Assembly (NCBI RefSeq): GCF_002563965.1
Contig: NZ_PDJF01000001.1
Span: 62,001 to 126,000 of the forward strand
From: Corynebacterium renale
Lineage (GTDB): Bacteria; Actinomycetota; Actinomycetes; Mycobacteriales; Mycobacteriaceae
Length of the DNA: 64,000 bases
Reading direction: 5' to 3'
Shown: piece by piece, positions 3,008 to 56,418 of the stretch
How positions within the stretch are numbered: the first letter of the stretch is position 1
How the letters are laid out: every line of letters begins with the position of its first letter
Position numbers and translations under genes: made by a program
Notes under the pieces: model-generated
What the model saw: the letters and a program-made list of their open reading frames with translations, nothing else
What the model was told of the DNA's origin: nothing
Database searches by the model: none

Positions 3008-3667
3008 ATGGTCTGGCGCGTATTTTTGCTCCTTGTCGGCATTGGAATAATGTCGTTTGGCGTCTCGCTGACGGTGGTCGCGGGTATCGGAACCACGACG
3101 AATTCATCGCTGCCGGTAGCGCTAGCCGCGATTACAGATTTGAGCGTCGGGCAGTTGACCATCGTGTTCAATTTTGTGTACGTCGCTGTACAGATTCTGC
3201 TGCTCCGCAGCCGCTACCAGTGGATTCAGCTCCTGCAATTGGTTACTGGCCTGATTTTTGGCTTGCTTATCGACGCCACCGCTCCCCTCGTCGAGCCACT
3301 GCGGCCCGAACATTACTGGCAGGAACTAGGCCTCGCCCTGATTGGTGTTGTGGGGATGGGGATAGGAATCGGCATGCAGGTCGGCGCGAATCTGATTAAT
3401 TTGCCCGGTGAGGGTTTCGTCGTGGCAATTACCTCCGCGCTGCGCCGACGGTTCGGCCCCCGCCCACGACTCCATTTTGGCACCGTGAAGACCGTGAGCG
3501 ACCTTGTGCACGTAGCCGTCGCCGCAGCGTTGGGCCTGATTTTCCTCGGCCATCTTGAAGGCGTGCGCGAAGCCACGATTATTGCCGCATTGTCGCTGGG
3601 CGCAATTTCGAAGACCGTCCTGAACCGGCTCCCCCACTATCCCCCGATTGTGCGCCCGAAAGAATAA
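3008..3667 (+). CDS. YczE/YitT-like integral membrane protein
   Basis: A 219-residue integral membrane protein with five to six hydrophobic segments. It fits the YczE-like group of the YitT superfamily: an N-terminal GVSLTVVAGIGT-like segment, a cytoplasmic-loop LINLPGEG motif, and a TVKTVSDL segment. The function is unknown; transport or regulation of transport has been suggested for relatives. ATG 3008 has an AAGGGGG ribosome site 11 bases upstream. A longer frame from 2876 would overlap the preceding gene and was not used. The gene ends at a strong bidirectional hairpin. Confidence 0.65.
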   Translation: MVWRVFLLLVGIGIMSFGVSLTVVAGIGTTTNSSLPVALAAITDLSVGQLTIVFNFVYVAVQILLLRSRYQWIQLLQLVTGLIFGLLIDATAPLVEPLRPEHYWQELGLALIGVVGMGIGIGMQVGANLINLPGEGFVVAITSALRRRFGPRPRLHFGTVKTVSDLVHVAVAAALGLIFLGHLEGVREATIIAALSLGAISKTVLNRLPHYPPIVRPKE

Positions 3668-3699
3668 ACCGTCGGCGCGTAAGACAACGCACCGACGGT
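3668..3699. terminator. Bidirectional hairpin between convergent genes
   Basis: ACCGTCGG (3668-3675) pairs with CCGACGGT (3692-3699), extended inward by GCGT/ACGC. It lies between the convergent membrane protein and cold-shock genes and can serve both. Confidence 0.7.
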
Positions 3700-3704
3700 A
3701 ATTA

Positions 3705-4085
3705 TTAAGCGTCAAGCTCCTTAGCCACAGCCCGGAGAATCTCCGCCACCTGACGGCCCTGCTTTCGATCCGGGAAACGCCCATTACGCAGCTCCGGCTG
3801 CACGGCAGATTCCAAGACAGTAAACAGGTCCTGAATCATAGAATTCAGCTGCTCTGGCGTGTACTTGTGTTGTGGCTTACGCGGGGCATCTAAAACTTTG
3901 ATGCGCAGCGCCTGCGGGCCTTTGCGCCCAGAGGCGAAATCGAATTCGATGCGCTGTCCTGGGAACAGTTCATCTACTCCCTTGGGAAGAACCTGTCGGC
4001 TGACAAAGACGTCTTCGTCGCCTGGGTTCGATGCGAATCCGAATCCCTTCTCTGCGTCATACCATTTCACCTTGCCCACTGGCAT
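3705..4085 (-). CDS. Cold-shock domain protein with C-terminal extension (CspB-like)
   Basis: A 126-residue protein. The N-terminal ~70 residues form a cold-shock domain with RNP-1 (KGFGF, about residues 13-17) and an RNP-2-like DVFVS motif (25-29), which bind single-stranded RNA or DNA. A further ~55 residues form a helical tail absent from ordinary 67-residue Csp proteins but present in the M. tuberculosis CspB type. The neighbourhood with rpfA also matches. Start MPVGKVKWY at 4085; an alternative ATG lies six bases upstream at 4091. A TATAGT -10-like box at 4220-4215 would place the transcript start inside the GlxR-like site. Confidence 0.8.
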   Translation of the reverse strand: MPVGKVKWYDAEKGFGFASNPGDEDVFVSRQVLPKGVDELFPGQRIEFDFASGRKGPQALRIKVLDAPRKPQHKYTPEQLNSMIQDLFTVLESAVQPELRNGRFPDRKQGRQVAEILRAVAKELDA

Positions 4086-4199
4086 GATCATCACCACTTT
4101 CTTCTTTCCTGGCGGCGCTTCAGGGCGCCTGCACACTGACCTACTATCCAACCATGCACCCACATTGGGGAGGAACTTAGCCCCAACCCCGTGATCCGT

Positions 4200-5586: not shown

Positions 5587-7830
5587 ATGAATGACCACCC
5601 CTCCTCCCCACTTTCTGGGGTATCCGAAAGGGTATCCACGCACGCTGCACGATTTACGGAATGGTTAGCCCAGCGTACGCCAAATGAGCTTGAGTCCTTG
5701 CTGCGGCTGCGCCCTGATGCGGCTACGCCTCCGCCGCCCACGGTGACGTCGTTAGCTACTCGGTTACAGTTATCGGCGTCGCTGGCGCGTGCGGTCGCGC
5801 AGCTGAATGCCCAAGAGTTGGCCGTCATCGAGGCTGCCGCCCATAAAGGCGCGGAGTGGGAACCTGTTCCAGCAGCGGATCTTGGTGCACCGGAGTCCTT
5901 CGAGCGGGTACGCGCTGCGGGGCTGATGTACGGGCAAGAGACGGTGTGGTTGCTTCCCGACGTTATCCGTTGCCTCGGCGCGGTGCGGGTGACCGATTCG
6001 CCCCTGACCGCAGAAGAAATCGAGGCCGCGCTCGCCGAGGCGTCCGATAGCGAACGCGCCGTCTTACACACCTTGGCGACCTCCGGTGGCGTAGGGACTA
6101 CGAAAGACGCTGCTATCGGAGCCGATCCTCAGCGTCCGGTGCCGTCGTTGATTGCGCGCGGTTTGGTGTATCGCGTCGACTCGTCGACGGTGCGTTTGCC
6201 GTTTTCGGTAGCCCAGGTGTTACGCGGTACGCGCATGTGCCCGATTCCCCTTAACCCGCCCACACTCCACGAAGGAAACGCGGCTGCTTCAGGAGCCGGC
6301 GAAGGCCTAGATACGGTGCGTCTCCTTGCGCAGCTCATCGATCATCTGGACCGGCGACCACAACAATTGCTACGCGCCGGTGGGATTGGGGTGCGTGAGG
6401 CCGCGCATCTCGCAGCGGATCTTGGTATTTCGCAGCAACGCTTGGCGTTCGTCGTCGGTCTGGGTGTGAGTGCCCGCCTGCTTTCTGTTGGTGAGCCACG
6501 GCCTTTGCCTGCTGATTGCCCGGAGGATGTGAATTATCTGGCGGCCACGGACGAAGCGACGCAGTGGCGTGCCGGGACGCTTGCCCAGCAGTGGGCTGTC
6601 CTGATTGCGGCACTCCCGGGTTCGCCGTGGATGTTTTGGCAGGCCGCAACACCCGACGAGGCGGGCAAGACACGTCACGTCATGTCGGAGGCGACACGTA
6701 GTTCGCACCTGACGCACATTCGGCAACAGTTCTGGGCGGCACTTGCGGCGCGGCCGGCCGGCTCGGCGCTAACTGCTAGCGAAGCAGCCGAAGTATTTGG
6801 GTTCACGTTCCCCGTGCGTGCTCACCGCGTGCCCCTTGCGGTGGCGGAGCACCTCTACGAGGAGGCCAGTTACCTCGGGCTTATCGACGACAGCACGCTC
6901 ACCCCCACAGGCGCCTGGTTCGCTGCGGCAACACGCGCGCTTCTCGACGGCGGCACCGCCCCCACAGCCGCAGGCGCTGAGGAAGTCGTTGCCGGTGTGG
7001 TGCCGGAGGCCGTCGATAAGCTGATTTTTCAAGCAGACCTTACTGTCTTGGCCCCTGGCCCGCTCGTCCACGAGGTGGCGTGGCGGATGCGGTTGCTCGC
7101 GGAGATCGAATCGCCTGGCCTCGCAGCGGTCTATCGGATTACGGAAGAAACGATTCGCGCAGGTATGGACGCCGGCATGTCTGCCGAGGACATCGTGGCA
7201 TTTTTCACCTCACATTCGCAGGGAACCCTGCCCGATGCTGTCACCTACCTTGTCAATGACGTTGCACGCACCCATGGCAGCCTCCGCGGCGGGCCGGCCG
7301 GATCCTACATTCGGTCCACCGATGAAGCATTGCTCGTGTCTGCTGTGCGCGTCGCCGAAAGTGTGGGGTTGCGATTGATTGCGCCAACGGTCGCGATTTC
7401 ACCGCGCCCGCTCGCAGACGTGTTGCGTGTTTTACGCGAGAACGGGTTCGCCCCCGCCGCTGAAGACGCCTCCGGCGCGGCCTTGGACGTTCGCCCCGAA
7501 CCACCCCGCCTGCCCACGCCGCGCGCGGCGGCACCTGCGTACGCGCCAGGACATCTCGACACCGTCGTGGCTAACGCGATCACCGCCCTGACCAATGGCG
7601 ATGGCACAGGGCATGCACATGCGTCAGGCGATATTGTCGGAATGCTGGAATCTGCGGTTCGCGGGCAGCGGACCGTCATGCTTTCCGTCGCGGATAAAAA
7701 CGGGCACGTTTCCGAGCGCATCGTACGCCCCATCCGCCTCGACGAAGGGACCTTACACGCCGTCGACCCGGACGGGGTCCAGGCATACCGCTTCACCGTG
7801 GAGAGAATCGCAGGAGTCTCTCCACCCTAG
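5587..7830 (+). CDS. Helicase-associated (XPB/Ssl2-like accessory) domain protein
   Basis: A 747-residue protein without helicase ATPase motifs. It matches the actinobacterial helicase-associated family (helicase C-terminal-like domain, M. tuberculosis Rv0862c type) found directly upstream of the XPB helicase. It shows winged-helix-like stretches in the first 300 residues, a Pro/Ala-rich linker (about 640-660), and a C-terminal domain ending with a beta-rich TVMLSVADKNGHVSERIVRP region. Inference: it partners with or loads the XPB motor encoded 52 bases downstream. TAGGAT nine bases before the ATG suggests a leaderless start. Confidence 0.75.
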   Translation: MNDHPSSPLSGVSERVSTHAARFTEWLAQRTPNELESLLRLRPDAATPPPPTVTSLATRLQLSASLARAVAQLNAQELAVIEAAAHKGAEWEPVPAADLGAPESFERVRAAGLMYGQETVWLLPDVIRCLGAVRVTDSPLTAEEIEAALAEASDSERAVLHTLATSGGVGTTKDAAIGADPQRPVPSLIARGLVYRVDSSTVRLPFSVAQVLRGTRMCPIPLNPPTLHEGNAAASGAGEGLDTVRLLAQLIDHLDRRPQQLLRAGGIGVREAAHLAADLGISQQRLAFVVGLGVSARLLSVGEPRPLPADCPEDVNYLAATDEATQWRAGTLAQQWAVLIAALPGSPWMFWQAATPDEAGKTRHVMSEATRSSHLTHIRQQFWAALAARPAGSALTASEAAEVFGFTFPVRAHRVPLAVAEHLYEEASYLGLIDDSTLTPTGAWFAAATRALLDGGTAPTAAGAEEVVAGVVPEAVDKLIFQADLTVLAPGPLVHEVAWRMRLLAEIESPGLAAVYRITEETIRAGMDAGMSAEDIVAFFTSHSQGTLPDAVTYLVNDVARTHGSLRGGPAGSYIRSTDEALLVSAVRVAESVGLRLIAPTVAISPRPLADVLRVLRENGFAPAAEDASGAALDVRPEPPRLPTPRAAAPAYAPGHLDTVVANAITALTNGDGTGHAHASGDIVGMLESAVRGQRTVMLSVADKNGHVSERIVRPIRLDEGTLHAVDPDGVQAYRFTVERIAGVSPP

Positions 7831-7882: not shown

Positions 7883-9568
7883 GTGGCACTCGATGGCCCG
7901 CTAATCGTGCAGTCCGATAAAACAATTCTTCTGGAGGTCGCTCACCCCCAGGCTGCTTTGGCACGCCTGGAACTGGCGCCGTTCGCCGAACTCGAGCGCG
8001 CCCCAGAGCACATCCACACCTACCGCATCACCCCGCTGGCCTTGTGGAATGCACGCGCCGCCGGGCATGACGCCGAACAGGTCGTCGACGTCCTGGAGCG
8101 GTATTCGCGCTTCCCTGTTCCGCAGGCGCTCCTCGTTGACGTGGCAGAGACGATGGCACGCTACGGGCGGGTCGTCCTGCACAAGCACCCCGCCCACGGC
8201 CTCATCCTGGAATCAGCGGAACCGGCAATTCTCGCGGAGGTGCAACGCCACAAGAAAATTGCACCAATGTTGGGCCAACGTATCGACGAGCACACCATCG
8301 TGGTACATCCCTCCGAGCGTGGGCGCCTGAAGCAAGAATTGCTCAAGATTGGGTGGCCCGCCGACGACCGCGCCGGCTACGTCGATGGCGAGCATCACCC
8401 CATCGCATTAAGCGACGCCACCGAGGAGTGGCAGCTACGCGACTACCAACGCTACGCAGTCGATTCCTTCTGGGAAGGCGGGTCCGGGGTCGTTGTGCTG
8501 CCGTGTGGCGCAGGCAAAACCATCGTGGGAGCTGGCACGATGGCGCTGGCTAAAACGACCACGCTCATCTTGGTCACCAACACCGTTGCCGGGCGCCAGT
8601 GGCGTGACGAACTGCTGCGCCGCACAACACTTACCCCCGAGGAGATCGGCGAATACTCGGGGGAAAAGAAGGAGATCCGGCCCGTCACCATCGCCACCTA
8701 CCAGGTGGTCACCCGCAAAACCCGGGGCGAGTACCGAGCGCTCGAACTCTTCGACTCCCGCGACTGGGGGTTAATCATCTATGACGAAGTCCACCTGCTC
8801 CCCGCGCCCGTCTTCCGCATGACTTCGGACCTGCAGTCGCGCCGCCGCCTCGGACTGACGGCCACCTTAGTGCGTGAGGATGGCCGCGAGGGCGACGTCT
8901 TCTCCCTCATTGGGCCGAAACGCTACGACGCGCCGTGGAAAGAGCTCGAGGCCGCCGGCTACATTGCCACCGCGGAGTGCGTGGAAATCCGCACGACCAT
9001 GAGCGACGCCGGGCGCATGGCATACGCCACCGCCGAGACTCGCGAACGCTACCGTCTTGCCGCATGCGCCCCGGAGAAACGTGCGGTCGTCGATAAGCTA
9101 CTCGAGGCGCATGCGGGCTCCCCCACGTTGGTGATCGGCGCCTACATCGACCAATTAGAGGAGATCGCCGAGCGGCATAACATCCCGCTTATCGACGGTT
9201 CCACCTCCACCAGCGCCCGGCAGAAAGCGTTCGATGCTTTCCGTGCGGGCGAAATCTCCCAACTCGTTGTGTCCAAGGTAGCCAATTTCTCGATCGACCT
9301 GCCCGAGGCATCAGTGGCGATCCAGGTTTCTGGGACGTTCGGCTCCCGCCAAGAAGAAGCTCAACGCCTGGGCAGATTGTTACGCCCGAAAGCAGACGGC
9401 GGCGAGGCCCACTTTTACACCGTGGTCACACGCGATACGCTCGACGCCGAATACGCCGCCCACCGGCAACGATTCCTCGCCGAGCAGGGATACGCCTACC
9501 GGCTTCTCGACGCCACCGATCTCCCCGCCTTCCTCACCGAAGAAGGTATCGTGTCCAGAAAGGATTAA
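7883..9568 (+). CDS. XPB-type superfamily 2 DNA helicase
   Basis: A 561-residue DNA helicase of the bacterial XPB (ERCC3) group; the family unwinds DNA 3'-to-5' and is linked to repair. Seen: an N-terminal damage-recognition-like domain (~1-180), Walker A CGAGKT (about 208-213), DEVH box (~300), LTATLVREDG with the RED motif typical of XPB (~326-335), and motif VI QRLGRLLRPK (~493-502). The GTG start at 7883 follows a good AAAGGAG ribosome site. It forms a pair with the accessory protein upstream and probably one transcript with the DUF3239 gene, two bases downstream. Confidence 0.92.
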   Translation: MALDGPLIVQSDKTILLEVAHPQAALARLELAPFAELERAPEHIHTYRITPLALWNARAAGHDAEQVVDVLERYSRFPVPQALLVDVAETMARYGRVVLHKHPAHGLILESAEPAILAEVQRHKKIAPMLGQRIDEHTIVVHPSERGRLKQELLKIGWPADDRAGYVDGEHHPIALSDATEEWQLRDYQRYAVDSFWEGGSGVVVLPCGAGKTIVGAGTMALAKTTTLILVTNTVAGRQWRDELLRRTTLTPEEIGEYSGEKKEIRPVTIATYQVVTRKTRGEYRALELFDSRDWGLIIYDEVHLLPAPVFRMTSDLQSRRRLGLTATLVREDGREGDVFSLIGPKRYDAPWKELEAAGYIATAECVEIRTTMSDAGRMAYATAETRERYRLAACAPEKRAVVDKLLEAHAGSPTLVIGAYIDQLEEIAERHNIPLIDGSTSTSARQKAFDAFRAGEISQLVVSKVANFSIDLPEASVAIQVSGTFGSRQEEAQRLGRLLRPKADGGEAHFYTVVTRDTLDAEYAAHRQRFLAEQGYAYRLLDATDLPAFLTEEGIVSRKD

Positions 9569-10212: not shown

Positions 10213-11363
10213 GCGCTGAGCCGGCGGCAGGCTTCCGCGATGACGTCTTCACTCTTGCAGTAAGCAAAGCGCACCATATCCGACCACGGTTCCGGATTGT
10301 CACAAAACGCAGACACAGGTATGCCAGCCACCCCGATCTCTTCCGGAGCCGACATACACCACTGCGCGGCATCGCGGGTAGCCACGCTCTCAGGCAGACG
10401 TGCACAAACGAAGAATGTTCCCGGACTATCAAAGACCTCCCACCCCGCCTGGGAAAGCGTCCAGGTTAATTCATCGCGACGCTGCTGCAGCGTCAACTGA
10501 TTCTGTTCAATCCACCCGCGTTCATTATTCAAGGCGTAGGCCACAGCCGGCTGAAGAGGGGCACCAGAAGCAAACGTCAAGTATTGGGACACTCCCGCAA
10601 TCGGCGCAAGTAACTCTTCCGGCGCGATGACCCATCCGACTTTCCATCCCGTGACGTTGAGCATTTTTGCCGCCGAGCTCACGGTGATTGTGCGTTCAGC
10701 AAGACTGCTTATCGACGCCGCCGGGGTGAACTCGACGCCATGCGTGAGGGTTTCGTAGACTTCGTCGGCAAGCACTACTGTCCGCGTCCCGTCGAGGAGT
10801 TCACCGAGCGATTGCAAAGCAGAGCTGCTAAAGACCGAGCCTGTGGGATTGTGCGGATTGTTGACGATGACCATCGCCGTTTCCGGCGACAAGGCTGCCT
10901 CGACGGCGATAATGTCGATGTCCCACGAGCGGGCGACCTGCTTCAACGGCACGCTGACACGCGAACCACCGGCTAACGAAATAGCCGCACCGTAAGAATC
11001 GTAGAACGGCTCTAGGACGATGACTTCATCACCAGGGTTCACGAATGCGAGCACCGAGGCAGCGATAGCCTCCGTCGCGCCAACTGTCGCGTATACGTTG
11101 CTAGGAGGGATCCTTAGCCCATAGCTGCTTTCCCGAAAAGCGGCCACCGCGCTCTTTAACTCTGAGATGCCTCCCGCCGGAGGGTACTGATTCCTGCCGC
11201 TAGTCAGCGCTTCGCAGGCTTTCTCGAGCATCGCCTGGGGACCGTCAGAATCGGGAAACCCTTGTCCAAGATTAATTGCATCGTGGCGTGAAGCTTCGGC
11301 GGTGATCGTCGAAAAGATAGATTCGCGGACGCCCCGCGCCCGAGCTGCCGGTTGGATAAACAC
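10209..11363 (-). CDS. Class I/II PLP-dependent aminotransferase (DapC-like position)
   Basis: A 384-residue fold-type I aminotransferase. Seen: LGQGFPD near the N-terminus, NNPHNPTG (~168-175), ADEVYE (~202), and the PLP-lysine motif SSAAKMLNVTGWKVGW (lysine about 232). M. tuberculosis has dapC (N-succinyldiaminopimelate aminotransferase) beside XPB, so a DapC role is possible, but C. glutamicum has dapC elsewhere, and kynurenine- or methionine-type aminotransferases share these motifs. Translation starts at GTG 11363 within a TAGTG overlap with the DedA stop, so the two genes are coupled. Confidence 0.8.
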   Translation of the reverse strand: MFIQPAARARGVRESIFSTITAEASRHDAINLGQGFPDSDGPQAMLEKACEALTSGRNQYPPAGGISELKSAVAAFRESSYGLRIPPSNVYATVGATEAIAASVLAFVNPGDEVIVLEPFYDSYGAAISLAGGSRVSVPLKQVARSWDIDIIAVEAALSPETAMVIVNNPHNPTGSVFSSSALQSLGELLDGTRTVVLADEVYETLTHGVEFTPAASISSLAERTITVSSAAKMLNVTGWKVGWVIAPEELLAPIAGVSQYLTFASGAPLQPAVAYALNNERGWIEQNQLTLQQRRDELTWTLSQAGWEVFDSPGTFFVCARLPESVATRDAAQWCMSAPEEIGVAGIPVSAFCDNPEPWSDMVRFAYCKSEDVIAEACRRLSA

Positions 11364-12427: not shown

Positions 12428-17342
<4,915 letters not shown>

Positions 17343-22392: not shown

Positions 22393-22908
22393 ATGGCTCC
22401 CGTTATCCGCAGACTCACTGTTTCCGACGCGTCAGTCGTGGCCAAGCTCGGCCGCGAAACCTTCCTAGCGACATTCGGGCACACCGACACGGCAGAGAAC
22501 ATGCAGGCTTACGTCGACGAAGCGTTCGCCCTCCCCCGCATCTCCGCTGAGCTCGCAAACCCAGAATCCGAGTTTTATTGTGTGCTTATCGACGACCTCC
22601 CGGCCGGCTACCTCAAAATCAACACAGGCAGCGCACAAACTGAACCTTACGGCGAGGAGGCCCTAGAAATACAGCGCCTGTACCTACACCACGCGTTCCA
22701 TGGGCGAGGTTTAGGTTCCGCGTTTATGACAAAAGCCTTAGAACGCGGGCGCGCCTTAGGTAAGAAGAAGGTGTGGTTGGGAGTCGCCGACTTTAACGAA
22801 CCGGCGCTACGCCTCTACACGAAGTTTGGTTTTACACATATCGGCGAGCACTACTTCACCATCGGTACTTCGACCGACGTGGACCTCATCTACGGGCGTG
22901 CGCTCTAG
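22393..22908 (+). CDS. GNAT-family N-acetyltransferase
   Basis: A 171-residue GNAT acetyltransferase. Seen: the acetyl-CoA site motif A, RLYLHHAFHGRGLGSAFM (~96-113; R/Q-x-x-G-x-G/A form), and motif B LGVADFNEPALRLYTKFGF (~127-145). The arrangement is like PaiA-type polyamine or small-molecule acetyltransferases; the substrate is not known. TTAATAT lies about eight bases before the ATG, so the transcript is probably leaderless. Confidence 0.85.
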   Translation: MAPVIRRLTVSDASVVAKLGRETFLATFGHTDTAENMQAYVDEAFALPRISAELANPESEFYCVLIDDLPAGYLKINTGSAQTEPYGEEALEIQRLYLHHAFHGRGLGSAFMTKALERGRALGKKKVWLGVADFNEPALRLYTKFGFTHIGEHYFTIGTSTDVDLIYGRAL

Positions 22909-22935: not shown

Positions 22936-22946
22936 CGTCGATAAGC
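22936..22946 (-). repeat. Intergenic copy of the iterated motif GCTTATCGACG
   Basis: CGTCGATAAGC on the plus strand, between the acetyltransferase stop and the GH3 start, outside any gene. The bases after the core are TC on the motif strand, matching the NC preference. Confidence 0.75.
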
Positions 22947-40690: not shown

Positions 40691-40750
40691 GGGCGCACCT
40701 CGTCTTTGGGTCGTCGTGAAGCCTAAAACTCCAGTATGGCATCTTTTCAT

Positions 40751-40761
40751 GCTTATCGACG
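40751..40761 (+). repeat. Intergenic copy of the iterated motif GCTTATCGACG
   Basis: Exact 11-mer between mscS and lldD, followed by CC (NC). Confidence 0.75.
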
Positions 40762-42140: not shown

Positions 42141-42895
42141 CGCTGGAGTTCGTGGCTCAGCGCTTCGAGTTCTCCGCCGCCGGCCATCTGATAGGTCAGT
42201 TCTTCGAGCGTGACCTCGGAGCGGTCGGCGTCCAGAACTTGTTCCCCCAATTTCAGGATGGAGAAGTGGTCGCCCACCAGGTAGGCGTGGTGCGGATTGT
42301 GGGTAATCAGCACCACGCCGATTCCCTTTTCGCGGGCGGCGCTGACAAAGCGCAGGACCATCCCGGACTGCTTCACACCAAGGGCAGCGGTGGGCTCGTC
42401 GAGGATGAGTACCCGCGCCCCGAAGTAAATGGCACGCGCAATGGAGACGACCTGCCGTTGGCCACCGGACAAGGTGCCGGCCTCAACGTTCACATCCGGG
42501 ATGTTAATCCGCATTTCCTCCAATTGCTGCGCACAGATCCTGCGCATCTCCTCTTCCTTGAGCGCGCCGAATACACCGGTTATTTCCTGGCCCAGGAAGA
42601 AGTTGCGCCACACGCTCATCTCATCGACGATCGCCAGGTTTTGGTGCACGGTAGCAATGCCATTATCGATAGCTTCGCGGGGTGAGGCCCATCGGGTTTC
42701 GGTGCCGTCGATAAGCATTGTGCCCGACGTCGCCTGGTGGATACCCGACAAAATCTTGATCAGTGTGGATTTTCCGGCGCCATTGTCGCCGAGAATGCAG
42801 GTGACGCGGCCGGCCTCGACGTCGAGGTTGATGCCGCGCAGTGCCCTGAAGCTGCCGTAGTTTTTGGTGATGTCGCGCAAGCTGATGACTGCCAT
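42137..42895 (-). CDS. Carbohydrate ABC transporter, ATP-binding protein (CUT2-like, single domain)
   Basis: A 252-residue ATPase: Walker A GDNGAGKS (~35-42), LSGGQRQ signature (~145), Walker B VLILDEP (~165-171) and a switch histidine ITHNP (~198). A single-domain ATPase (about 250 residues) is typical of FrcA-type sugar systems; the usual RbsA is a 500-residue tandem. It serves the permease and binding protein encoded upstream on the same strand. Overlaps lldD stop by four bases. Confidence 0.85.
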
Positions 42896-44896: not shown

Positions 44897-45226
44897 GGCT
44901 CACATAGTGGAGGGGTGTAACAGTACGGTCAAATGGTTTTTTGGGTTTTTGGCGTATTTTCGGCCGTAGAAAAGGCAACCGCGCCATGTCTGCGCTTATC
45001 GACGTCCCCCTCCCCCACTCACCCGCCAGTCAATTCATTTACCTGCTACTTTGTCCTCGGAAATGTGTGGCTGGCGGCGTTCTTCTCCCCGTCACGGAGC
45101 ACGCGGGGGCTGGGCTTCGCAGCGTTCTGAATCGTTTTAGATAAAAAGTTAAGTTTCCCAGCCTGGAGACGCGGACAAGCCACGAGGCCCGAGAGAATTC
45201 CCGAGCCTCGCATCCATAGCCATGTG
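44897..45226. other. 330-bp region between the sugar importer and the surface-protein gene
   Basis: No credible gene. It holds the importer promoter, a copy of the iterated motif (44994-45004) and a hairpin at 45183-45210 (GAGGC/GCCTC with inner CGGG pairs) that likely ends the surface-protein transcript. Confidence 0.6.
44994..45004 (+). repeat. Intergenic copy of the iterated motif GCTTATCGACG
   Basis: Exact 11-mer between the sugar importer and the surface protein gene, followed by TC (NC). Confidence 0.75.
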
Positions 45227-48200
45227 CTAGTCACTCACGCACTGATCCGCGATCGTCAGCCCGGCGATGACCGCGTACGCAATTAGACCAGCAAAACGCA
45301 TACCCTGCTGGACCTGCGGGGACTTGAGCGTGGCATTGAGCTGCTCCACCCACGCAGCAACGTCAGGGTTATAGATTCCGGCCCGCTGCTGCAGCATACG
45401 ATGCACGTCCGCGATGGACTGCGAAATCTCCGCCTGACGCTGTGCCAAACCAGGCACGTTAATCGATGCGCCGAGGGCGAATGGGATCAGCGCCAGGAAT
45501 GGAATTCCCAGGCCGACTCCCGTGGCGACACATTTACCGTTCACTGCTGTTGGTTCCTGCACGTCAACGGCTTCAATCGTGACGGGGATTTCGCCGACGG
45601 TTGTGCCGTCTTTCGCGGCGATGACTACGGTGGCATCCCCTGCTGGAGCGCCGTTACTCACCGTCACCGTAATCGCCCCGGTCTTCGGATCAACCTGTAC
45701 GGAAGCGCCCGCCAGAGGTGTGCCGTCGCCACCAAGGAGCGTTCCTGTAAGGCCTTCGCGTGGATTGCGGACGACGTCGTCGAGAGCCACTGGCACCCCA
45801 TTGGCAAGGATTCGATCAACGCCCTTACCAGGGATGATCTGCGGCTTAGTGGGAATAAGAAGCGTTGCGGGGAATTCGTCCTTATTCTTCGGGTCGGTTC
45901 CCTCTGCGGTTTCGGTGACGTCGGTGTAGCCGTCGCCGTCGTCGTCAGTATCTGTGGTGTCGGGTTCGCCGTCCTTGTCGGTGTCGCGCAGGATGTCAAT
46001 AGTAATGATCTTGGTGGTCTTCGCCCCGGCCGGCGTGGTCACCGTGGCTTCGATGGTGAGGCGTTGTTCTTCCTTTCCGCTACCCCACTTCACCTGCGGG
46101 GTCCCGGAGATGGTGCTGGTCGCGGGGTCGAAGGTCAGGCCCTCAGGCAGGCTCGCGGTATCGATTGTGACGGTCGCGCCATCGCGAGGGGTGATCACGA
46201 TGTCGTGGATGGGCTGGTATTCGAAGACCGTCTGCCCAGCACCGGTGACATCGGCTTCCGCGCCCGGGTTAAGCGGGGTCGCCGGGAATTCGTCCTTATC
46301 CTTCGGGTTGGTCCCCGCCGCGGTTTCTAACGTGTCGGTGAAGCCGTCGCCGTCGTCGTCAGTATCCGTGGTGTCGGGTTCGCCGTCCTTGTCCGTGTCG
46401 CGGGCGACGGTGATGGTGAAGTTGGTGGTCACGCCCGAGCCGTCCTCGTTGACGGCGGCTACTTTGACCGTGATGGCGCGGGTTTCTTCTGCCCCATCCC
46501 AGGTCACGGTTGGGGTTCCGGTGATGGTGCGCGTCGCTTCGTCGAAGGTCAGGCCAGTGCCGTCAAGCCCATCGACGGTGATGATTGCTTTGGGGTCTTC
46601 GGCTTTAATCGCCACCGCGTCGAGGGCCTTGCCCTCTACCTTGGTCTGGTTATCAATGGGCTCGAGGGACTTGACTGGCTTCACGACGCTCATTGGCTGC
46701 GATTTCTCACTCTTGGAATCTGTGCCAGCGTGCTTTTCTACCTCGTCGCTGAAGCCGTCGCCGTCGTCGTCCTTGTCCGTGAGGTCCGGCTCGCCGTCAC
46801 GGTCGGTGTCGCGCTGCACGGTGATGGTGAAGTACTTGACGTCTTCTGTCCCGCCTGGGTGCGTGACCTTCGCTTCGACCTTGAATTCTTTGGTCTCCTC
46901 CCCCTTTTCCCACGTCACTTCCGGCGTGCCCGTGATCTCACGGGTTTCCGGGTTGTACGTCAACCCTTCGGGGAGGCCGGCATTCGGCGTTCCGCGCCCG
47001 ACGGCAGTGTGGAAGGTCGGGTGAGCCTCCAGGTTTTTACCCGTGACGGCGATCGGCTCGACCGGCGCATGCTCAACGACGGTGGATTCCGCGATGTCGT
47101 CCAGCAGTGCTGGGGTGCGAACCCACAGGTCAAACGTATCGACGGAGTCACCACCCTGGTTGTCCTTGTACACAACCTGAACCGAAACCGTTTGGGTGGT
47201 ACCCGGTTCTAATTTCTGCGACGGGTGAACGACGAGTGTGGCGCCGTCGGGAAGCGGTTGCCCGGTTTCCTCAGTCTCTGCTTTGGGTTTCTTCTTCGCG
47301 GAGAAGCTGACCAGCTTGCTGAGGTTCTGCGCGGTGAGATCCCCGAGACTAGAGATATCCAGCGGCTTCTGCTGCGAGTTCAGTTCGGTGTTAACCGCTG
47401 GCTCGTACTTGTCCTTGAGCGGGTACACGTGCAGGTTCATGGTGCCCACGCGTATGTCGGCCGGATTCGTGGCTCGCGGTACCGAATAGGTAACTACGTT
47501 CTTGCCCAGCTGCGCGTCGAGGTCAATCGCTCCGGTAATTGCGTAGTCCACGGCCATATACGGTTTGGCGTCGGCAGGTTTGACATCCTTACGGTTGCCG
47601 TCGCGCGTATCGCCGACCAGGCTCATGCTCAGGCCCTTGGGAAGGCCTTGGACCGTAACGTCAGGGGTCGCGTCATTTTCTTTGCGCTTGACCACCGTGA
47701 TGTTGTTTGCAAAGACGCACAGGCCACTGGCAGTTTGTTGTGATTCTTGTGCCTTGGTAGGCGCATTTGAGCAAGGAGTTGCCGGGCTGGTGTCCCCTTC
47801 AGAGAACTTGGCTTGGAAATTCTGCAGCTTCACGGTGTGCTTGACGTCGCGGCCAGCAGCACCACGGAAAAAGTGCATTTCAGTCGGCTTTTCGGCGATG
47901 TTCTCGCCCGCGTTCGTGAAGGTGGGCAGTTCGGGTTCGCGCTGACCCGTTGCGGTGTGATCCTTGTAGAGCACGAAGTCAGTGATCTTCAGCTCCTGCT
48001 GCTTTCCCCCGAGCGTGAAGGTGACCTTCCCTGTCCCCTCAGGAGTGGTGATGTCTGTGGCTTCAGGATTTGCTTCTTTAACTTTCCTGGCAATGTCATC
48101 GGCTTCGCGCTTGAGCAACCAGTAGGGGTTAAACACCGCGACCGCCGCAGGTATTACCGGTCCACTCGAGGCGGACCGGTTTTCTGTGGCGTTCGGTGTT

Positions 48201-48437: not shown

Positions 48438-48612
48438 CTATTGAGTGACGTGTCCACTGTGGAGTGTTGCGGTGAGGTGGGTATCAGCTTCACGACGCCC
48501 TCCGGCCGCCTCTCGCCCGTTTGAACATCAGCCCGCATTCGCCGCACGGAGTGCCACTCCGCTGAATTCCGCCCGGCCGGTTACGTTCGACCTTGCCGGC
48601 TTGCGCTGGCGT

Positions 48613-49367: not shown

Positions 49368-52340
49368 TTACTGCTGGTCCTGGTAGGACTTCACAGCGCG
49401 GTCCAGCTGGTCTAGGGCTCGACCGTATTCCTCGAAGCTGCCGTTACGGGCAGATTCTAGGTTGCGCAGGGCGTCGTTGATGCGGCCAATCGCGTCGCCT
49501 GCGTCACCGGTTCCAGACGCCGGGGCGGATGGAGTGGACTCGCCCTTCTTCTCATCCTTGGAGTCTGCCGACTTCGCAGGGGTGGAGGTACTTCCGTCTT
49601 CTTCAACGACCTCGATGTCCTGAGCGGACTTCGGGTCGATGCCCACCTGCTGGAGGGCTTCAGCGATGGTCGGTGCGTAGCCCACCTGGCCGTCGTAAGA
49701 CACCAGCACACGCAGCAGCTTCGGGAATGCAGATTCCTGATCCTTACGCTGGGAGTAAATCGGTTCTACGTACAGGATTTCTCCCCCGCCGACCGGCAAG
49801 GTCAGCAGGTTGCCGTTGTGCAGCGTATTGGTGCCTTCCCACAGGGTGCGGTCGCGGGCAATCTGGTCGGAGGACATCATGGTGTCCTGTGCCTGCTTCG
49901 GGCCCTGGGTTTGGGTGTTCGTCGGCAGTACGCGCACGGTGATCTGGCCGTAGTTCTCCGGGTCGGAGGTCACGGTCATGTGTGCGGACAGGAACTCACG
50001 GGACAGGCCGCGGAACGGGGTAATCAGCTGGAAGCTGGATTCTCCGGTCTCCGGGTCGGCAGCCACGATGTAGTACGGAGGCTGGCGCAATTCCTGGCGT
50101 CCTTCCGGTGCGGTTGGGTCGTTCGGGACGGACCAGAAGGAGTCGTTGGTGAAGAACACGCCTGGGTCGTCGACGTGGTAGCGGGCAAGCATTTCACGCT
50201 GGACCTTGAACAGGTCTTCTGGGTAGCGCAGGTGCTCACGGAGTTCGTCGGAAATCTCGGACTCTGGCTTCACCGTGTCCGGGAAGATGGAACGCCATGC
50301 CTTGAGGACTGGGTCCTCGGTGTCGAACTCGTAGAGTTCCACGGTGCCGTCGTACGCGTCCACGGTGGCCTTGACGGAGTTGCGGATGTAGCCAACCTCG
50401 TTGGAGACCAGGCGCTGGTTGGTGCCGTCCGGGTTCAGGGCATCCTCGGTGGCCTGCTGCAGGCTGGTACGGGAGGAGTATGGCAAGGAGCTCAAGGTGG
50501 TGTAGCCGTCCACGATCCACTTGATGCGGCCATCGACGACAGCCGGGTAGGTCTTGGAATCGGTGGTCAACCATGGGGCAACCTTTTCCACACGCTCACG
50601 CGGGTCACGGTCGAAGATGATCTTCGATTCGTCGCCAACACGGTCGGAGAGAATCAGGTTCATCTCCTGGTATTTGATCGCAAACGCTGCGCGGTTGATC
50701 CAGTTAGCTACATCTACACCACCCTTGCCTGTGTAGGTGTAGTTGGAGTTGTCGGTGTCGTATTCCACGTCGCCGTTTCCAGCAGTGCCGACGATCGCAT
50801 AATCCTTGCCATCAGCGGCAGAGGCAATCACCGGACCGTAGTAAATACGAGGCTGATCGACCTTGATGCCCAGATCTTCGTTCGCCTCGTTTTCGCGGGC
50901 CAAGGTCTGGGACTGCAGGTCAGACACACGGTAGACCGGGTAGCCACCACGGGTGGAGCCCACATCACGGGCAACCTCATCCACCTGGTTGGCCTGCGCT
51001 GCGATGAAGCCGTTGCCGTGGGTGTACACAGTGTGACGGTTGATCCAGTCGGACTGGTTTTCACGCAGTTCGTTCGGGTCGAGTTCGCGGGCTGCGACGA
51101 CGAAGTCACGCAGCTCCCCGTCCACCTCGTAGCGGTCAACAGCCAGGGTGTCCGGGAATCCGTAGAAGTTACGCAGCTGCTGTTGCTGGGTGAAGGTTGG
51201 GCTCAAGATGTCTGGGTCCAGGAGGCGGATGTTGGAAATGGTTGCCTCGTCGGAAGCTACGGCCTCGTTGGAAGCACCTTCAGCGCCCCAGTTCTCCAGG
51301 TAGGTGACTTCTTCATCCGTGATGCCGTACGCGTGGCGGGTGGCATCGATATTGCGGGCGATGTATTCAGATTCCTTCGCAGCGCGGTTCGGGTTGACGG
51401 AGAAACGCTCCATCAGGGCCGGCCATGCGCCGCCGATGACAACCTGGGAAACCAGCATCAGAACCACGCCGAGGGCTGGGATACGCAGGTCCTTGATAAC
51501 GATGGCAGAGAAGAAAGACACCGCCACCAAGACGCCAATAATCATGAGGATAATCTGGGCTGGAAGCTGGGCGTTGATGTCCGTGTAGGAACCGCCGGTG
51601 AACACCTCGTGGCGGTTACTCAGCAAGGAGAAGCGGTCCAGCCAGAAGCCGAAGACCTTCACCAGCATCCACAGGCCAGCAATCACGGCAAGTTGGATAC
51701 GCGCCGGCTTGGTCACCGTGCCGTTGATTCCAGCAGCCTGGTTACCAATCCGGATCGCTCCCAAGAGGTAGTAGCCCACTAGAGAGATAAGGAAGGCAAT
51801 AATCAGCCACGTCGATAAGCTGGATTGAACCAGACGCAAGAATGGTGCGGTGAACGCGTAGAAACCGAGGTCGTGCCCGAACTGGGGGTCCTGGATTCCA
51901 AAGTTTTCACCGTTGACGAACATCAACACATTGCGCCACTGGGCCTGGCCAGTCAACCCCGCAAAAATGCCGATGACCACAGGCAAAGCCACCAGCAAGC
52001 CCTTGACCGAACGGTCGATGGACTGCCGGTACTGGTGCACGGGCGAGTTGAGGTCTAAATCGGCAAGATCGTTCGGCCGATTCTTCCACGTCAAATACCC
52101 TGCAGCCCATGTAATCAGGCCTGCGAGCAGTGCAAAAACAATGAACAAAATGATGCGGGTGACAACCACTCGGGTAAACACGCCACGGAAATCGACCTCA
52201 CCGAACCACAGCCAGTCGGTGTAAAAACCAACGAGGAGTGGTGCACCAATGACCAGGACGGCAAGAATGCCGACTAGCCATGCGAGGCCTTTTCTCGGGG
52301 CGCGTGCCGGGGCTGCCGAATAAGTGGAACCGTTCGCCAC
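49368..52340 (-). CDS. UPF0182 family large membrane protein
   Basis: A 990-residue protein of the UPF0182 family (M. tuberculosis Rv3193c type). The first ~300 residues hold seven membrane helices; the rest is a large exported domain, with an acidic Ala/Ser-rich tail containing several Asp/Glu blocks. Its function is unknown. The start is GTG 52340, with AAGGAG seven bases upstream; a longer frame to 52391 lacks this. It is the start of the block matching mycobacterial Rv3193c-Rv3202c. Confidence 0.88.
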   Translation of the reverse strand: MANGSTYSAAPARAPRKGLAWLVGILAVLVIGAPLLVGFYTDWLWFGEVDFRGVFTRVVVTRIILFIVFALLAGLITWAAGYLTWKNRPNDLADLDLNSPVHQYRQSIDRSVKGLLVALPVVIGIFAGLTGQAQWRNVLMFVNGENFGIQDPQFGHDLGFYAFTAPFLRLVQSSLSTWLIIAFLISLVGYYLLGAIRIGNQAAGINGTVTKPARIQLAVIAGLWMLVKVFGFWLDRFSLLSNRHEVFTGGSYTDINAQLPAQIILMIIGVLVAVSFFSAIVIKDLRIPALGVVLMLVSQVVIGGAWPALMERFSVNPNRAAKESEYIARNIDATRHAYGITDEEVTYLENWGAEGASNEAVASDEATISNIRLLDPDILSPTFTQQQQLRNFYGFPDTLAVDRYEVDGELRDFVVAARELDPNELRENQSDWINRHTVYTHGNGFIAAQANQVDEVARDVGSTRGGYPVYRVSDLQSQTLARENEANEDLGIKVDQPRIYYGPVIASAADGKDYAIVGTAGNGDVEYDTDNSNYTYTGKGGVDVANWINRAAFAIKYQEMNLILSDRVGDESKIIFDRDPRERVEKVAPWLTTDSKTYPAVVDGRIKWIVDGYTTLSSLPYSSRTSLQQATEDALNPDGTNQRLVSNEVGYIRNSVKATVDAYDGTVELYEFDTEDPVLKAWRSIFPDTVKPESEISDELREHLRYPEDLFKVQREMLARYHVDDPGVFFTNDSFWSVPNDPTAPEGRQELRQPPYYIVAADPETGESSFQLITPFRGLSREFLSAHMTVTSDPENYGQITVRVLPTNTQTQGPKQAQDTMMSSDQIARDRTLWEGTNTLHNGNLLTLPVGGGEILYVEPIYSQRKDQESAFPKLLRVLVSYDGQVGYAPTIAEALQQVGIDPKSAQDIEVVEEDGSTSTPAKSADSKDEKKGESTPSAPASGTGDAGDAIGRINDALRNLESARNGSFEEYGRALDQLDRAVKSYQDQQ
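51810..51820 (-). repeat. Coding copy of the iterated motif inside the UPF0182 gene
   Basis: GCTTATCGACG on the motif strand, followed by TG. It reads Leu-Ser-Thr here, a different frame from most coding copies. Confidence 0.7.
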
Positions 52341-52467: not shown

Positions 52468-53010
52468 ATGACGCAGCGTGAGCAGACTCAGCAGGCGCTC
52501 AATAAAGCCATGGTCGAAGCTATTGAATACGTCCACGCCGAAGGGTGGGACGGCCCGCCGGTACTTTTTGGCCTGGTGAGCTCCAGGATGCTTGCCGACG
52601 CCGACATCACCCTGACCAACGTCGACGACGAAGACACCGCGCCCCTGACGCTCATCGTGCAGGATAACCTGCCCGAGAACATCGAACCAGGCTCCGCCAT
52701 GCTGGCCGATTACCTCACTCGCATCGCCTGGCCCCCACATATCGAAGGCGTGGTGCTCACCCAGGAGATTATGTTCAAGGACTCCTCGGCGGGACCGGAC
52801 GCTCCGGCTCGTCCTGCGCGTCTGATTTCCGGCGTGCTGCGCGAGGGCGCGGAACAGACCCTGCTCCAATTGCGCCCCACCGAAGAAGAACTCGAAGAAG
52901 CAGGCCCCTTTGCCCAGGATGATATCCAGCTGCGCGGCGGTCCAGGCGTTGCGCCCAACGTGATCGCAGCATTGAAATACGGTCTCGAGGCCGATCCCGA
53001 ACAGTGGTAG
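52468..53010 (+). CDS. PPA1309 family protein
   Basis: A 180-residue acidic soluble protein matching the actinobacterial PPA1309 family, function unknown. Conserved-looking segments include WDGPPxLFGLV (~29-38), DYLTRIAWPPHIEGVVLTQEI (~80-100) and the DLQLRGGPGVAPN-like end (DIQLRGGPGVAPN, ~150). It lies between UPF0182 and the lipoprotein gene. No cofactor motif is visible. Confidence 0.75.
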   Translation: MTQREQTQQALNKAMVEAIEYVHAEGWDGPPVLFGLVSSRMLADADITLTNVDDEDTAPLTLIVQDNLPENIEPGSAMLADYLTRIAWPPHIEGVVLTQEIMFKDSSAGPDAPARPARLISGVLREGAEQTLLQLRPTEEELEEAGPFAQDDIQLRGGPGVAPNVIAALKYGLEADPEQW

Positions 53011-53777: not shown

Positions 53778-54833
53778 CTACTCGCTACAGGTGGGGTACG
53801 GTTTTCCTGCCGCGTGGGCGTCCATGGCCGATAGGGCGTCGTCAAGCGTAGCTACCTTCGCCAGCGGAATATCTGCGTCGGCGGACAACGCCTCCTTGCA
53901 GTTATCCTTAGGCGCCAGGAAAAGCTGGGCGCCTTCATCGGCTGCGGCGCGGACCTTGTGCGCGATGCCGCCGATCGGCCCGACCGTGCCGTCCTCGCTA
54001 ATTGTGCCCGTACCTGCAACAACGGCCCCAGACGTAAGATTTCCGGGGGTCAGTTTGTCGATGATCGCAAGACTAAACATCATGCCCGCCGATGGGCCAC
54101 CAACGTCTGACAGGTTGTAGGTCACGTCAATTCCATCTGCGGATCGTGACGACATAAGGACCCCCACCTGCCCCTGCTTCGGATCCCTCTCGGAAGCTTT
54201 CAAAGTGACGGGAATCTCGTGCTCGGCGCCGTCGCGAAGCACAGTAAAGCGCACCGTCTCTCCCGGCGCACGCGCTGTGACTAGGTCCCGGACGTCGGCA
54301 GGAGTATCAACTGCCGTGCCATCGACCGCGCGCAGGACGTCGCCTTCCTTGAGCATCCCCTCTGCGGCACTGCCTTCGAGGACGCCCGCAACCTCAACCT
54401 GCATCGGCTTCTTCAGATGTCGCAAGGCGGCAACGGTAGCATTCGCCTCCGACGTATTAAACGCAATCTGATTCGAACGGCTGATCTCTTCCTCACTAGC
54501 GCCGGGAGGAAAGAGCTCGTCGATAGGCACAAATTGATCATCCGTGGTGGCCCACAGTGTGAGTGCCTGCAGCAGGCTCATGTTCGTGCGCACCGCCACG
54601 GTGGTCATGTTGAGCTCGCCAGCCGGGTTGTCGTCCGTGGGAGCACCACTAATAGCAATGACCTGCTTGCCATCGACCTCACCGAGCGTGTCGATCACCG
54701 GGCCCGGCCCCTGCGCCGCATAGGGCACCGCCAAGGAAATATCCGTGCCCGGAATATGGTTCCACGAGACAAGCCCCGCAAGGGCGATAACCGGGATTGC
54801 ACCCAGAAGGACAGTACTCACACGACGTTTCAC
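53778..54833 (-). CDS. Lon-type PDZ serine protease (YlbL/Rv3194c type)
   Basis: A 351-residue membrane-anchored protease: N-terminal membrane helix (~8-28), a PDZ domain (~115-200; VEVAGVLEGSAAEGMLKEGDVLRAVDG), and a Lon-like catalytic domain (~225-335) with the serine motif GGPSAGMMFSL (Ser ~249) and lysine in GIAHKVRAA (~292), the Ser-Lys dyad. Family type is YlbL (S16-like). GTG 54833 was chosen as start (VKRRVSTVLLG); an ATG at 54866 is possible and would abut the iterated motif copy. Likely cleaves exported substrates outside the membrane. Confidence 0.82.
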   Translation of the reverse strand: MKRRVSTVLLGAIPVIALAGLVSWNHIPGTDISLAVPYAAQGPGPVIDTLGEVDGKQVIAISGAPTDDNPAGELNMTTVAVRTNMSLLQALTLWATTDDQFVPIDELFPPGASEEEISRSNQIAFNTSEANATVAALRHLKKPMQVEVAGVLEGSAAEGMLKEGDVLRAVDGTAVDTPADVRDLVTARAPGETVRFTVLRDGAEHEIPVTLKASERDPKQGQVGVLMSSRSADGIDVTYNLSDVGGPSAGMMFSLAIIDKLTPGNLTSGAVVAGTGTISEDGTVGPIGGIAHKVRAAADEGAQLFLAPKDNCKEALSADADIPLAKVATLDDALSAMDAHAAGKPYPTCSE

Positions 54834-54866
54834 AAACGGACAGCCTACCTGCCACCTCACTGCCAT

Positions 54867-54877
54867 GCTTATCGACG
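54867..54877 (+). repeat. Intergenic copy of the iterated motif GCTTATCGACG
   Basis: Exact 11-mer immediately upstream of the Lon/PDZ protease gene, followed by CC (NC). Confidence 0.75.
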
Positions 54878-54990
54878 CCACGCCACCTCCCCTGTACATC
54901 ACCTGTGAAGGTGGCGGTGTTCGCTGACAGCGTCATACATATCAGCGTCTTTTGTGGCAGCCAGACCTGAAACGCCGGTAAGTTAGGGGC

Positions 54991-56418
54991 ATGACTTCAG
55001 GTGGATTTGGATTTAGCTTTAATAATAACGACGACGATGACCGCGAGGACGGTTCCGGCAACAGCGGTAACGGCGGCGGTAATGACGGGCCGCAGTTTGG
55101 TTTCTTTGGCGGCCCCTTCGGATTCAGCATGTCCGGATCCGGTTCCGGAAACTCTGGTGGGCCCGGCAATTTAGGCGATATTTTAAACCAGTTCGGCGCC
55201 ATGCTCTCCGGCATGGGTAACTCCATGAACTCGCCCGAAGGCGCTGGCCCGGTTAATTATGACGTAGCAAAACGCACCGCACGCCAGCACGTAGACAGTA
55301 GTCAGCGCGTGCGCCCGCAGGATACGAAGGCCGTCGAAGATTCCGTGCGCTTAGCCAACCTGTGGTTAGGGGAAGCCACCTCCCTCCCCGAGGGCGAAAG
55401 CCGCGTCGTGGCGTGGAGCCCGCACGACTGGCTCCAGGAAACCATGCCGATGTGGCAGCGCCTCGTAGAACCAGTAGCCCGCCACATGAACGAAGCCCAG
55501 CTGGATTCGATGCCCGAAGAAGCACGCGAAATGATGGGCCCCATGTCCGGAATGCTCAACCAAATCACTGCGATGAACTTTGGTATGCAGTTGGGCCACG
55601 CGCTGGGCGACCTAGCCAACCAGGCGCTCACCGGCTCCGACTTCGGCATTCCGGTCGCCCCAGCCCACACCACGGCCCTGGTTCCCTCCGCGATCAGCAC
55701 ATTGGCCCAAGACCTGGAACTTCCCGCACAGGAAGTCATGGTCTACGTCGCAGCGCGTGAGGCTGCCCGCCAACGCCTCTTCGACAACGTCCCGTGGTTG
55801 ACCGAACGCCTCGTCTCTTCCGTCGAGGAATACGCGATGGGTTTGGTCATCGACACGTCCCACATCGAAGAAGCAATCCGGGGCATGGGCCTGGAATCCC
55901 AGGATCCGGAGGCGATACAAGAAGCGATGGAAAATCTGCAGGGACTGGATATGTCCCCGAAGATTTCCTCCCGCAACGCCGCCGCAGTCACCCGCTTGGA
56001 AACGCTCCTAGCCCTTATCGAAGGTTGGGTCGAGCACGTTGTCACCGAAGCCCTTGGCGAACGCATCCCTTCCACCGCTGCGCTGAACGAGTCGTGGCGA
56101 CGTCGCCGCGCATCCGGCGGTTCTGCCGAAGATGCTTTCTCCACGGTGGTCGGTATTGAATTCAACGCCCCCGAGGTCGCCGGCGCGCAAGACCTGTGGC
56201 GCCGCGCGGACACCGCGGTAGGCCAGCAACGTCGCGACGCCGTCTGGCAGCACCCCGACTTCATGCCGACTGCTGAAGACCTAGAAAACTCCGCCGACTT
56301 CATCGACGGGCTTATCGACGACGGCACCGCCACCGACTTCGACCCCATCTCCGAAATCCAGGCACTCGAAGAACGGCTCGCTGCCGAAGACGAGGACGAT
56401 AAAGACGACGAGAAATAG
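54991..56418 (+). CDS. DUF2342 (zinc-dependent metalloprotease-like) protein
   Basis: A 475-residue protein of the DUF2342 family (M. tuberculosis Rv3195 type, often annotated as a zinc-dependent metalloprotease or hydrolase). Gly/Asn-rich N-terminus (~1-70), a central helical region with MQLGHALGDLANQALTGSDFGIP (~197-218), ALIEGWVEHVV (~340) and the tail AAEDEDDKDDEK. No HExxH zinc motif is visible where it would be expected; the corresponding segment reads AREAARQRLF (~254), so a classical protease seems unlikely. Its stop abuts that of the YgjP-like gene. Confidence 0.7.
   Translation: MTSGGFGFSFNNNDDDDREDGSGNSGNGGGNDGPQFGFFGGPFGFSMSGSGSGNSGGPGNLGDILNQFGAMLSGMGNSMNSPEGAGPVNYDVAKRTARQHVDSSQRVRPQDTKAVEDSVRLANLWLGEATSLPEGESRVVAWSPHDWLQETMPMWQRLVEPVARHMNEAQLDSMPEEAREMMGPMSGMLNQITAMNFGMQLGHALGDLANQALTGSDFGIPVAPAHTTALVPSAISTLAQDLELPAQEVMVYVAAREAARQRLFDNVPWLTERLVSSVEEYAMGLVIDTSHIEEAIRGMGLESQDPEAIQEAMENLQGLDMSPKISSRNAAAVTRLETLLALIEGWVEHVVTEALGERIPSTAALNESWRRRRASGGSAEDAFSTVVGIEFNAPEVAGAQDLWRRADTAVGQQRRDAVWQHPDFMPTAEDLENSADFIDGLIDDGTATDFDPISEIQALEERLAAEDEDDKDDEK
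56310..56320 (+). repeat. Coding copy of the iterated motif inside the DUF2342 gene
   Basis: GCTTATCGACG followed by AC (NC), reading Leu-Ile-Asp. Another coding copy in the adjacent block. Confidence 0.7.

Follow-up and report, generated by a model that had tools for sequence, protein, structure and literature searches.

Occurrence in the window

The stretch analysed, a window of 64,000 nucleotides from Corynebacterium renale (bases 62001-126000 of a single contig of 2,348,927 bases, NZ_PDJF01000001.1), carries within and between its genes many copies of an 11-base word, GCTTATCGACG (the exact core), a candidate DNA uptake sequence (DUS). The 18 copies listed in an earlier note on this DNA proved exact in every coordinate and strand (Table 1), and their excess was confirmed: dinucleotide-preserving shuffles held 0.01 copies on average, and none of 100 reached 18. 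As had also been reported, 16 of the 18 copies are followed by NC, and seven lie between genes according to a simple home-made gene finder, the calls of which are approximate and probably miss coding sequence. The count of 18 understates the element, because bases 5 and 6 are loose: with GCTTNNCGAYG as the pattern, the window holds 40 sites, and NC comes next in 34.

Abundance and structure of the motif

The word is not confined to the window. The 2.35-Mb chromosome has 379 exact copies (192 on the plus and 187 on the minus strand), against none for the reversed-word control. A sample of 864 kb (the window and 40 stretches of 20 kb, 37% of the genome) contains 147 copies where an order-4 Markov model expects 1.9, so the over-representation survives that correction, and the ratio of seen to expected is the highest among all 11-mers with at least 15 copies in the sample. 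Large genome-wide excess of a 9-13-base word over a Markov model is a property of DNA uptake sequences.

Among one-mismatch neighbours of the exact core, base 5 is the main loose position (A 147, C 92, G 29, T 26); lesser variation is seen at base 3 (G 13) and base 6 (A 12), and other variants have 0-6 copies each. The degenerate site GCTTNNCGAYGNC (bases 5-6 free, Y at base 10, C at +12) occurs 1110 times in the genome, against 12 for its reversed control, with GCTTATCGACG as the commonest form. Downstream lies a C-rich tail. Among 64 intergenic copies the share of C is 50-55% at +13 to +15, 53-59% at +20 and +21, and 61% at +30, against a background of 27% [C at +12 was required in choosing these sites]; T stands at -1 in 48% of these copies. 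Evidence for the tail is most secure in the intergenic copies, because in coding copies the tail partly tracks codon third positions. Coding copies favour the frame CTT NNC GAC GNC (61 of the 147 exact copies in the sample), and antisense and intergenic copies retain the same core, with the tail, in line with the earlier claim that codon use cannot account for the copies between genes. Flanking conservation stops at the tail, apart from weak codon-like periodicity.

Table 1 Motif sites in the 64-kb window. Gene context follows the home-made gene finder; positions are those of the window.
Site	Position	Strand	Context and remarks
exact core	3265..3275	+	in gene, same strand
exact core	6879..6889	+	in gene, same strand
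exact core	7011..7021	-	antisense in gene
exact core	9088..9098	-	antisense in gene
exact core	9187..9197	+	in gene, same strand; no NC after
exact core	10707..10717	+	antisense in gene
exact core	22584..22594	+	in gene, same strand
exact core	22936..22946	-	intergenic
exact core	28024..28034	-	intergenic
exact core	33416..33426	+	intergenic
exact core	34629..34639	-	intergenic
exact core	37360..37370	+	in gene, same strand
exact core	40751..40761	+	intergenic
exact core	42706..42716	-	in gene, same strand
exact core	44994..45004	+	intergenic
exact core	51810..51820	-	in gene, same strand; no NC after
exact core	54867..54877	+	intergenic
exact core	56310..56320	+	in gene, same strand
variant GCTTGACGACG	2997..3007	-	intergenic; C-rich tail
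variant GCTTCCCGACG	5952..5962	+	no NC tail
variant GCTTCTCGACG	6939..6949	+	
variant GCTTCTCGACG	9502..9512	+	
variant GCTTGCCGACG	10763..10773	-	no NC tail
variant GCTTGTCGATG	21462..21472	-	
variant GCTTTTCGACG	30349..30359	-	intergenic
variant GCTTGCCGACG	32869..32879	-	no NC tail
variant GCTTGCCGACG	34278..34288	-	
variant GCTTCACGACG	40712..40722	-	intergenic
variant GCTTCACGACG	46678..46688	+	no NC tail
variant GCTTCCCGACG	47245..47255	-	
variant GCTTCACGACG	48487..48497	+	intergenic; tail CCCTCCGGCC
variant GCTTGCCGACG	52590..52600	+	
variant GCTTGACGACG	53837..53847	-	
variant GCTTCGCGACG	54230..54240	-	
variant GCTTCTCGACG	57781..57791	+	intergenic
variant GCTTCTCGACG	58955..58965	-	
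variant GCTTTGCGACG	60738..60748	+	
variant GCTTGCCGACG	61420..61430	-	
variant GCTTTTCGACG	62417..62427	+	
variant GCTTACCGACG	63668..63678	-	

The longest motif-free gap of the window encloses a ribosomal RNA operon (5S, 23S, 16S, minus strand; 12194-17344), and a transfer-messenger RNA lies at 27532-27911.

Distribution and dialects

Across 120 relatives in the genus, GCTTATCGACG is found in 0 to 679 copies; each of 80 genomes from other genera of the order has at most 6. The degenerate site GCTTNNCGAYGNC is at least 6-fold over control in 91 of the 120 relatives and in the own genome (median about 800 copies in these 92, control median 27), weak (2.7-6 fold) in seven and near control in 22, and stands at 0.6-2.2 times control in all 40 other-genus genomes tested out of the 80. 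A search for TadA in named genomes, swamped by distant ATPases, gave 80 loci; the Corynebacterium record among them (L123) has 13 sites in 21 kb, and the other 79 together have 32 sites against 20 control matches.

A second spelling, GCTTGCCGATG, was found from de novo k-mers in G052, which has four copies of GCTTATCGACG. It numbers 478 copies in G052, 340 in G006, 336 in G104, 213 in G093 and 133 in G110; GCTTATCGACG has only 3-13 copies in these five genomes. G072 and G083 (the latter in the weak class for GCTTNNCGAYGNC) have 33-34 copies of GCTTGCCGATG, other genus genomes at most 23. The ACG spelling is designated D1, the ATG spelling D2. In 80 kb of G047, GCTTTCCGACG (8 copies) and GCTTGCCGACG (5 copies) were found. 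Consensus sequences from an expectation-maximization motif finder were GCTTatCGACG.C in the own genome, its reverse complement in G070, CtTGcCGATGCC.CC in G052 and gCTtg.CGATGcC in G006. Consensus and 7-mer ranks are relied on here, because the likelihoods of the finder come without a shuffled control and sets with no visible motif reach 136-173.

Some genomes do not have the GCTT form. On a midpoint-rooted tree of the ComEC core only (51 genomes), 18 of 21 such genomes fall into a single group with good support, and at least two changes are required for D2. Dialects in this group rest on 100-200 kb per set. Among about 16,000 7-mers, CGACGCC ranks 1st in G014, 2nd in G032, 24th in G009 and 34th in G065; in the G053 group TGACGCC ranks 4th and CGACGCC is depleted. 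TT is present at -7 to -2 in 32-60% of occurrences in these sets, against 9-23% for the reversed word, and five of the nine groups sampled share one plan: a T-tract, a short spacer and YGACGCC, in a dialect-specific spelling. The dialects thus cohere by species or clade around a conserved inner core, the shared part being the right half, YGAYGNC, as in uptake sequences.

Other repeated words were met in the sampled loci. The word TTGCCGACGC is over-represented in L221 of G012 (7 in 20 kb, 0.4 expected), a genome with a weak GCTT form, and is perhaps a further dialect. Densely repeated words, for example GGATTCATTCTC (L083-L086 of G065, 38 copies in 80 kb) and TTAGAACCCAGC (L087-L090 of G083, 22 copies in 80 kb), have the look of CRISPR or other repeat arrays and are unrelated to the motif; TGGAGCACCCGG (11 copies) and CGGAGCTGCTGG (10 copies) are among the words repeated in 80 kb of G032 (L071-L074).

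Orthologous sites and codon usage

Two orthologous loci of G006 (D2) and G004 (D1), 79% identical, were aligned, and eight sites outside the alignments were set aside. G004 has a site at 16 of the 19 G006 sites that aligned, compared with conservation of those nine positions in 18-19% of background windows (p=1.5e-9). The dialect base is T in G006 and C in G004 at 15 of the 16 shared sites, against a background C-to-T rate of 6.1% (p=9e-18, sites treated as independent), and the two-base spacer differs at three of the 16. Aligned sites that are not shared differ by substitution (two in G006, six in G004) or by a gap (one and two, respectively). In G070 and G034 (79% identical), 14 of 19 aligned rows, counted in both directions, are sites in both, the remainder being four substitutions and one gap; in G006 and G104 (94%), 18 of 19 rows are sites in both.

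The dialect base is not accounted for by codon preference and overrides codon bias both ways. Sites in the Asp frame have 217 GAC to 3 GAT in the own genome (9231:4201 for all Asp codons) and 16 GAC to 0 in G004 (328:321). They have 40 GAT to 0 GAC in the G006 loci together with one G104 locus (1026:719 for all Asp codons, GAC to GAT; the G104 locus is orthologous to one G006 locus, so that the sites are partly the same), and 15 GAT to 0 in G052, although GAC is commoner there overall (838:610). Intergenic copies are spelled alike: 67 C to 1 T in the own genome, 5 T to 0 in G052 and 3 C to 0 in G004.

Two observations together indicate a trans-acting reader whose specificity has changed, with the sites following: the 16 sites compared in two loci, and the near-uniform spelling, whatever the frame and also between genes, in the D1 and D2 genomes sampled.

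Genes for DNA uptake

Putative genes for DNA uptake are present in the own genome, as expected of a species with an uptake sequence. A tad locus at about 507-511 kb encodes an Ssd-like protein (just below the cut-off), TadA, two T2SSF-type proteins (one just below the cut-off), a small DUF4244 protein at the Flp position, TadE (Rv3655c type) and a TadE-like pilin (Rv3654c type); comEA-comEC lies at about 1.397 Mb, and a prepilin peptidase gene is unlinked to the tad genes. Over the family cut-offs, ComEC is found in all 121 genomes of the genus, a T2SSE/TadA-type ATPase in 115 (any match, 118), prepilin peptidase in 112 (any match, 120) and the Rv3654c-type pilin in 115 (any match, 120); among 14 control genomes only C. 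glutamicum has that pilin. A second pilin model, NF041390, gave matches too weak to use (103 of 121 genomes, 17 over cut-off), and a short-looking pilin fragment in G072 sits at a contig end. With ComEC, T2SSE, prepilin peptidase and TadE-like pilin near universal, the presence of the machinery was rejected as a discriminator of motif-bearing species.

ComEC itself varies. Long open frames (about 650-880 amino acids) occur in many relatives that do not have GCTT and mostly shorter ones (about 420-600) in motif-rich genomes, with G018, G055, G079 and G098 as exceptions; the difference could be domain loss or merely phylogeny. ComEC matches fall in two pieces in G001, G111 and G113, as if by frameshift or assembly error, and G113 has 529 exact motif copies despite this.

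A proposed role in DNA uptake

We put at roughly three in four the probability that the motif serves as a DNA uptake sequence for a competence system with a Tad pilus. In this model the natural-transformation machinery would have a DNA receptor on the cell surface, either the Tad/Flp pilus or another surface protein, that binds GCTTNNCGACGNC with the C-rich tail and so favours uptake of DNA from the same species or a close one; ComEA and ComEC would bring in one strand, and homologous recombination would then swap the local allele. Such molecular drive, uptake bias plus recombination, would spread the site and hold it at many loci, and any change in the preference of the receptor would draw the sites after it and create dialects (ACG to ATG; GCTT to a looser T-tract). 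We infer that the genus is naturally competent, that its uptake machine reads the site and that drive, rather than selection site by site, maintains it.

It also appears fairly probable that natural transformation operates across the genus Corynebacterium and is divided by dialect. Its tag would then be a third class of uptake sequence, one that evolved independently in Gram-positive Actinobacteria and is recognised by a pilus of the Tad/Flp type, and changes of dialect would re-spell about 1000 chromosomal sites and so raise recombination barriers between species.

Several results weigh against a role in uptake. All 16 shared pairs of G006 and G004 lie within predicted genes; for 12 of the 15 switches the reading frame makes the change silent (GAC and GAT both encode Asp), and antisense copies of class A1 in G004 are evenly divided (3 C, 3 T). 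The 22 relatives near control for GCTTNNCGAYGNC have ComEC throughout and the other genes in most cases. No column separating the dialects was found in the two TadE-like pilins of five D2 and 19 D1 genomes. In the sampled DNA, no related motif was found in the G029 group and at most a weak signal in the G106 group, G013 and G038. Close site pairs are not in excess (13 gaps below 100 bp, 16 expected); such pairs, inverted and terminator-like, are common among DUS and uptake signal sequences (USS), yet not essential. Finally, the exact AT form tilts slightly to the lagging strand (61:86 leading to lagging, p=0.047).

Placement on the chromosome and alternative explanations

Four roles had been offered by the earlier note: uptake sequence, Chi-like site, FtsK/nucleoid site and methylation target. 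The first is favoured here; the Chi-like role and that of FtsK orienting polar sequences (KOPS) were rejected on strand balance. With dnaA at 725.7 kb taken as the origin and the terminus assumed opposite, the GCTTNNCGACGNC sites of the 864-kb sample divide into 188 leading and 204 lagging (p=0.45), in a sample whose coding bases are 61% leading. Occurrence on both strands, seen in sample and genome alike, with no replichore polarity, as in the sample, is a property of uptake sequences. Neither a Chi-type leading-strand bias of orientation nor a KOPS-type strong skew switching at origin and terminus was found in the sample, and both roles are disfavoured because leading-strand bias is absent. 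A Chi-like hotspot read by a helicase-nuclease of the RecBCD, AddAB or AdnAB type, with a specificity drifting between species, would fit a genome-wide, asymmetric motif, and any site read in trans could have dialects. Known Chi sites, however, are shorter and biased to the leading strand, and the roughly 11 fixed core positions and C-rich tail tracts are closer to uptake sequences; we regard this explanation as unlikely.

Also improbable is a binding site for an abundant chromosome-organizing or regulatory protein (nucleoid, segregation or transcription factor) that changed its specificity from clade to clade. The dialect switch does indicate a trans-acting reader, and divergent intergenic regions are richer in sites than convergent ones (27 in 50.2 kb, 5 in 29.5 kb). 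Against it, site spacing is near random (coefficient of variation 0.96), 325 of the 392 sampled sites lie inside predicted genes, and replichore pattern is absent. Uptake bias with recombination would re-spell sites automatically, whereas such a protein would need very many parallel changes; a joint one-base switch at hundreds of sites would be hard to achieve without drive.

Site density is about 0.34 per kb between genes (64 GCTTNNCGACGNC sites in 186.5 kb of the sample) and about 0.49 per kb in coding sequence (325 sites over 77% of 864 kb). The seven intergenic copies of the window are real but represent no enrichment, because intergenic density is below coding density; enrichment between genes or at terminators was rejected on this ground and on the close pairs.

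A methyltransferase or restriction target, or a repeat of unexplained origin comparable to HIP1 of cyanobacteria, would account for a short word in extreme excess with species-specific spelling, and is very improbable: the motif is asymmetric with a tail, HIP1 is palindromic, and restriction normally leads a genome to avoid the word. Scarcely credible is an origin from codon or dipeptide usage (Leu-x-Asp, C-ending codons) or from a mobile repeat: whatever the commonest coding frame suggests, the antisense and intergenic copies, the codon classes and the other genera contradict the former, and unshared sites that are mostly substitutions (8 against 3 gaps in G006/G004, 4 against 1 in G070/G034), with flanks that end at the tail, contradict the latter.

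Significance

If the motif is an uptake sequence, most of a medically and industrially important genus would be, or would recently have been, naturally transformable with self-recognition. Beside Neisseriaceae and Pasteurellaceae, the genus would be an independent case of the evolution of uptake sequences; its dialect map would predict gene exchange between species, and laboratory Corynebacterium that are hard to engineer might be transformed by this route. Paired dialects would make the spread and switching of uptake sequences directly testable.

Comparison with known systems

Uptake tags for DNA self-recognition are known mainly from two Gram-negative families. Open-access titles and abstracts reported no uptake sequence for Corynebacterium or other Actinobacteria; subscription papers and preprints lay outside that scope, and priority is uncertain. 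The exact string GCTTATCGACG appears in two papers, in a plant 5' untranslated region and a duck virus clone. A motif scan gives, in the part concerned, CRISPR patterns for three Corynebacterium species (PMC5217627). The passages of a review drawn on here treat DUS with ComP, and describe Flp-pilus competence with no uptake sequence (PMC6370729).

Transformation of the actinobacterium Micrococcus luteus requires Tad/Flp pili, and the authors of that study describe the combination of Tad, ComEA and ComEC as frequent in Actinobacteria (PMC4322843). The own genome has the same kit: tadA-B-C, a small protein at the Flp position, TadE-like pilins, comEA-comEC and an unlinked prepilin peptidase. It differs in that 'uptake sequence' is absent from the main text of the M. 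luteus paper (PMC4322843), and in that competence of Corynebacterium is a prediction.

The DUS of Neisseriaceae, with ComP as receptor, has dialects with a conserved inner core (PMC3630211). Like the Corynebacterium motif, it is short and asymmetric and occurs on both strands at least hundreds of times, with one main dialect per species, a shared inner core and competence pilus genes present. The sequences are unrelated, and here the host is a Gram-positive actinobacterium with Tad/Flp genes instead of a type IVa pilus; the Corynebacterium motif, a candidate tag, has a loose two-base spacer and a long C-rich tail.

The USS of Pasteurellaceae likewise has more than one dialect (PMC12616744), and shares with the Corynebacterium motif a discontinuous structure, a fixed core followed by base-biased downstream tracts. 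The tracts of the latter are C-rich (peaks at +13 to +15, +20 to +22 and +30), not A/T-rich, its core is unrelated, and its sites show no excess of close pairs.

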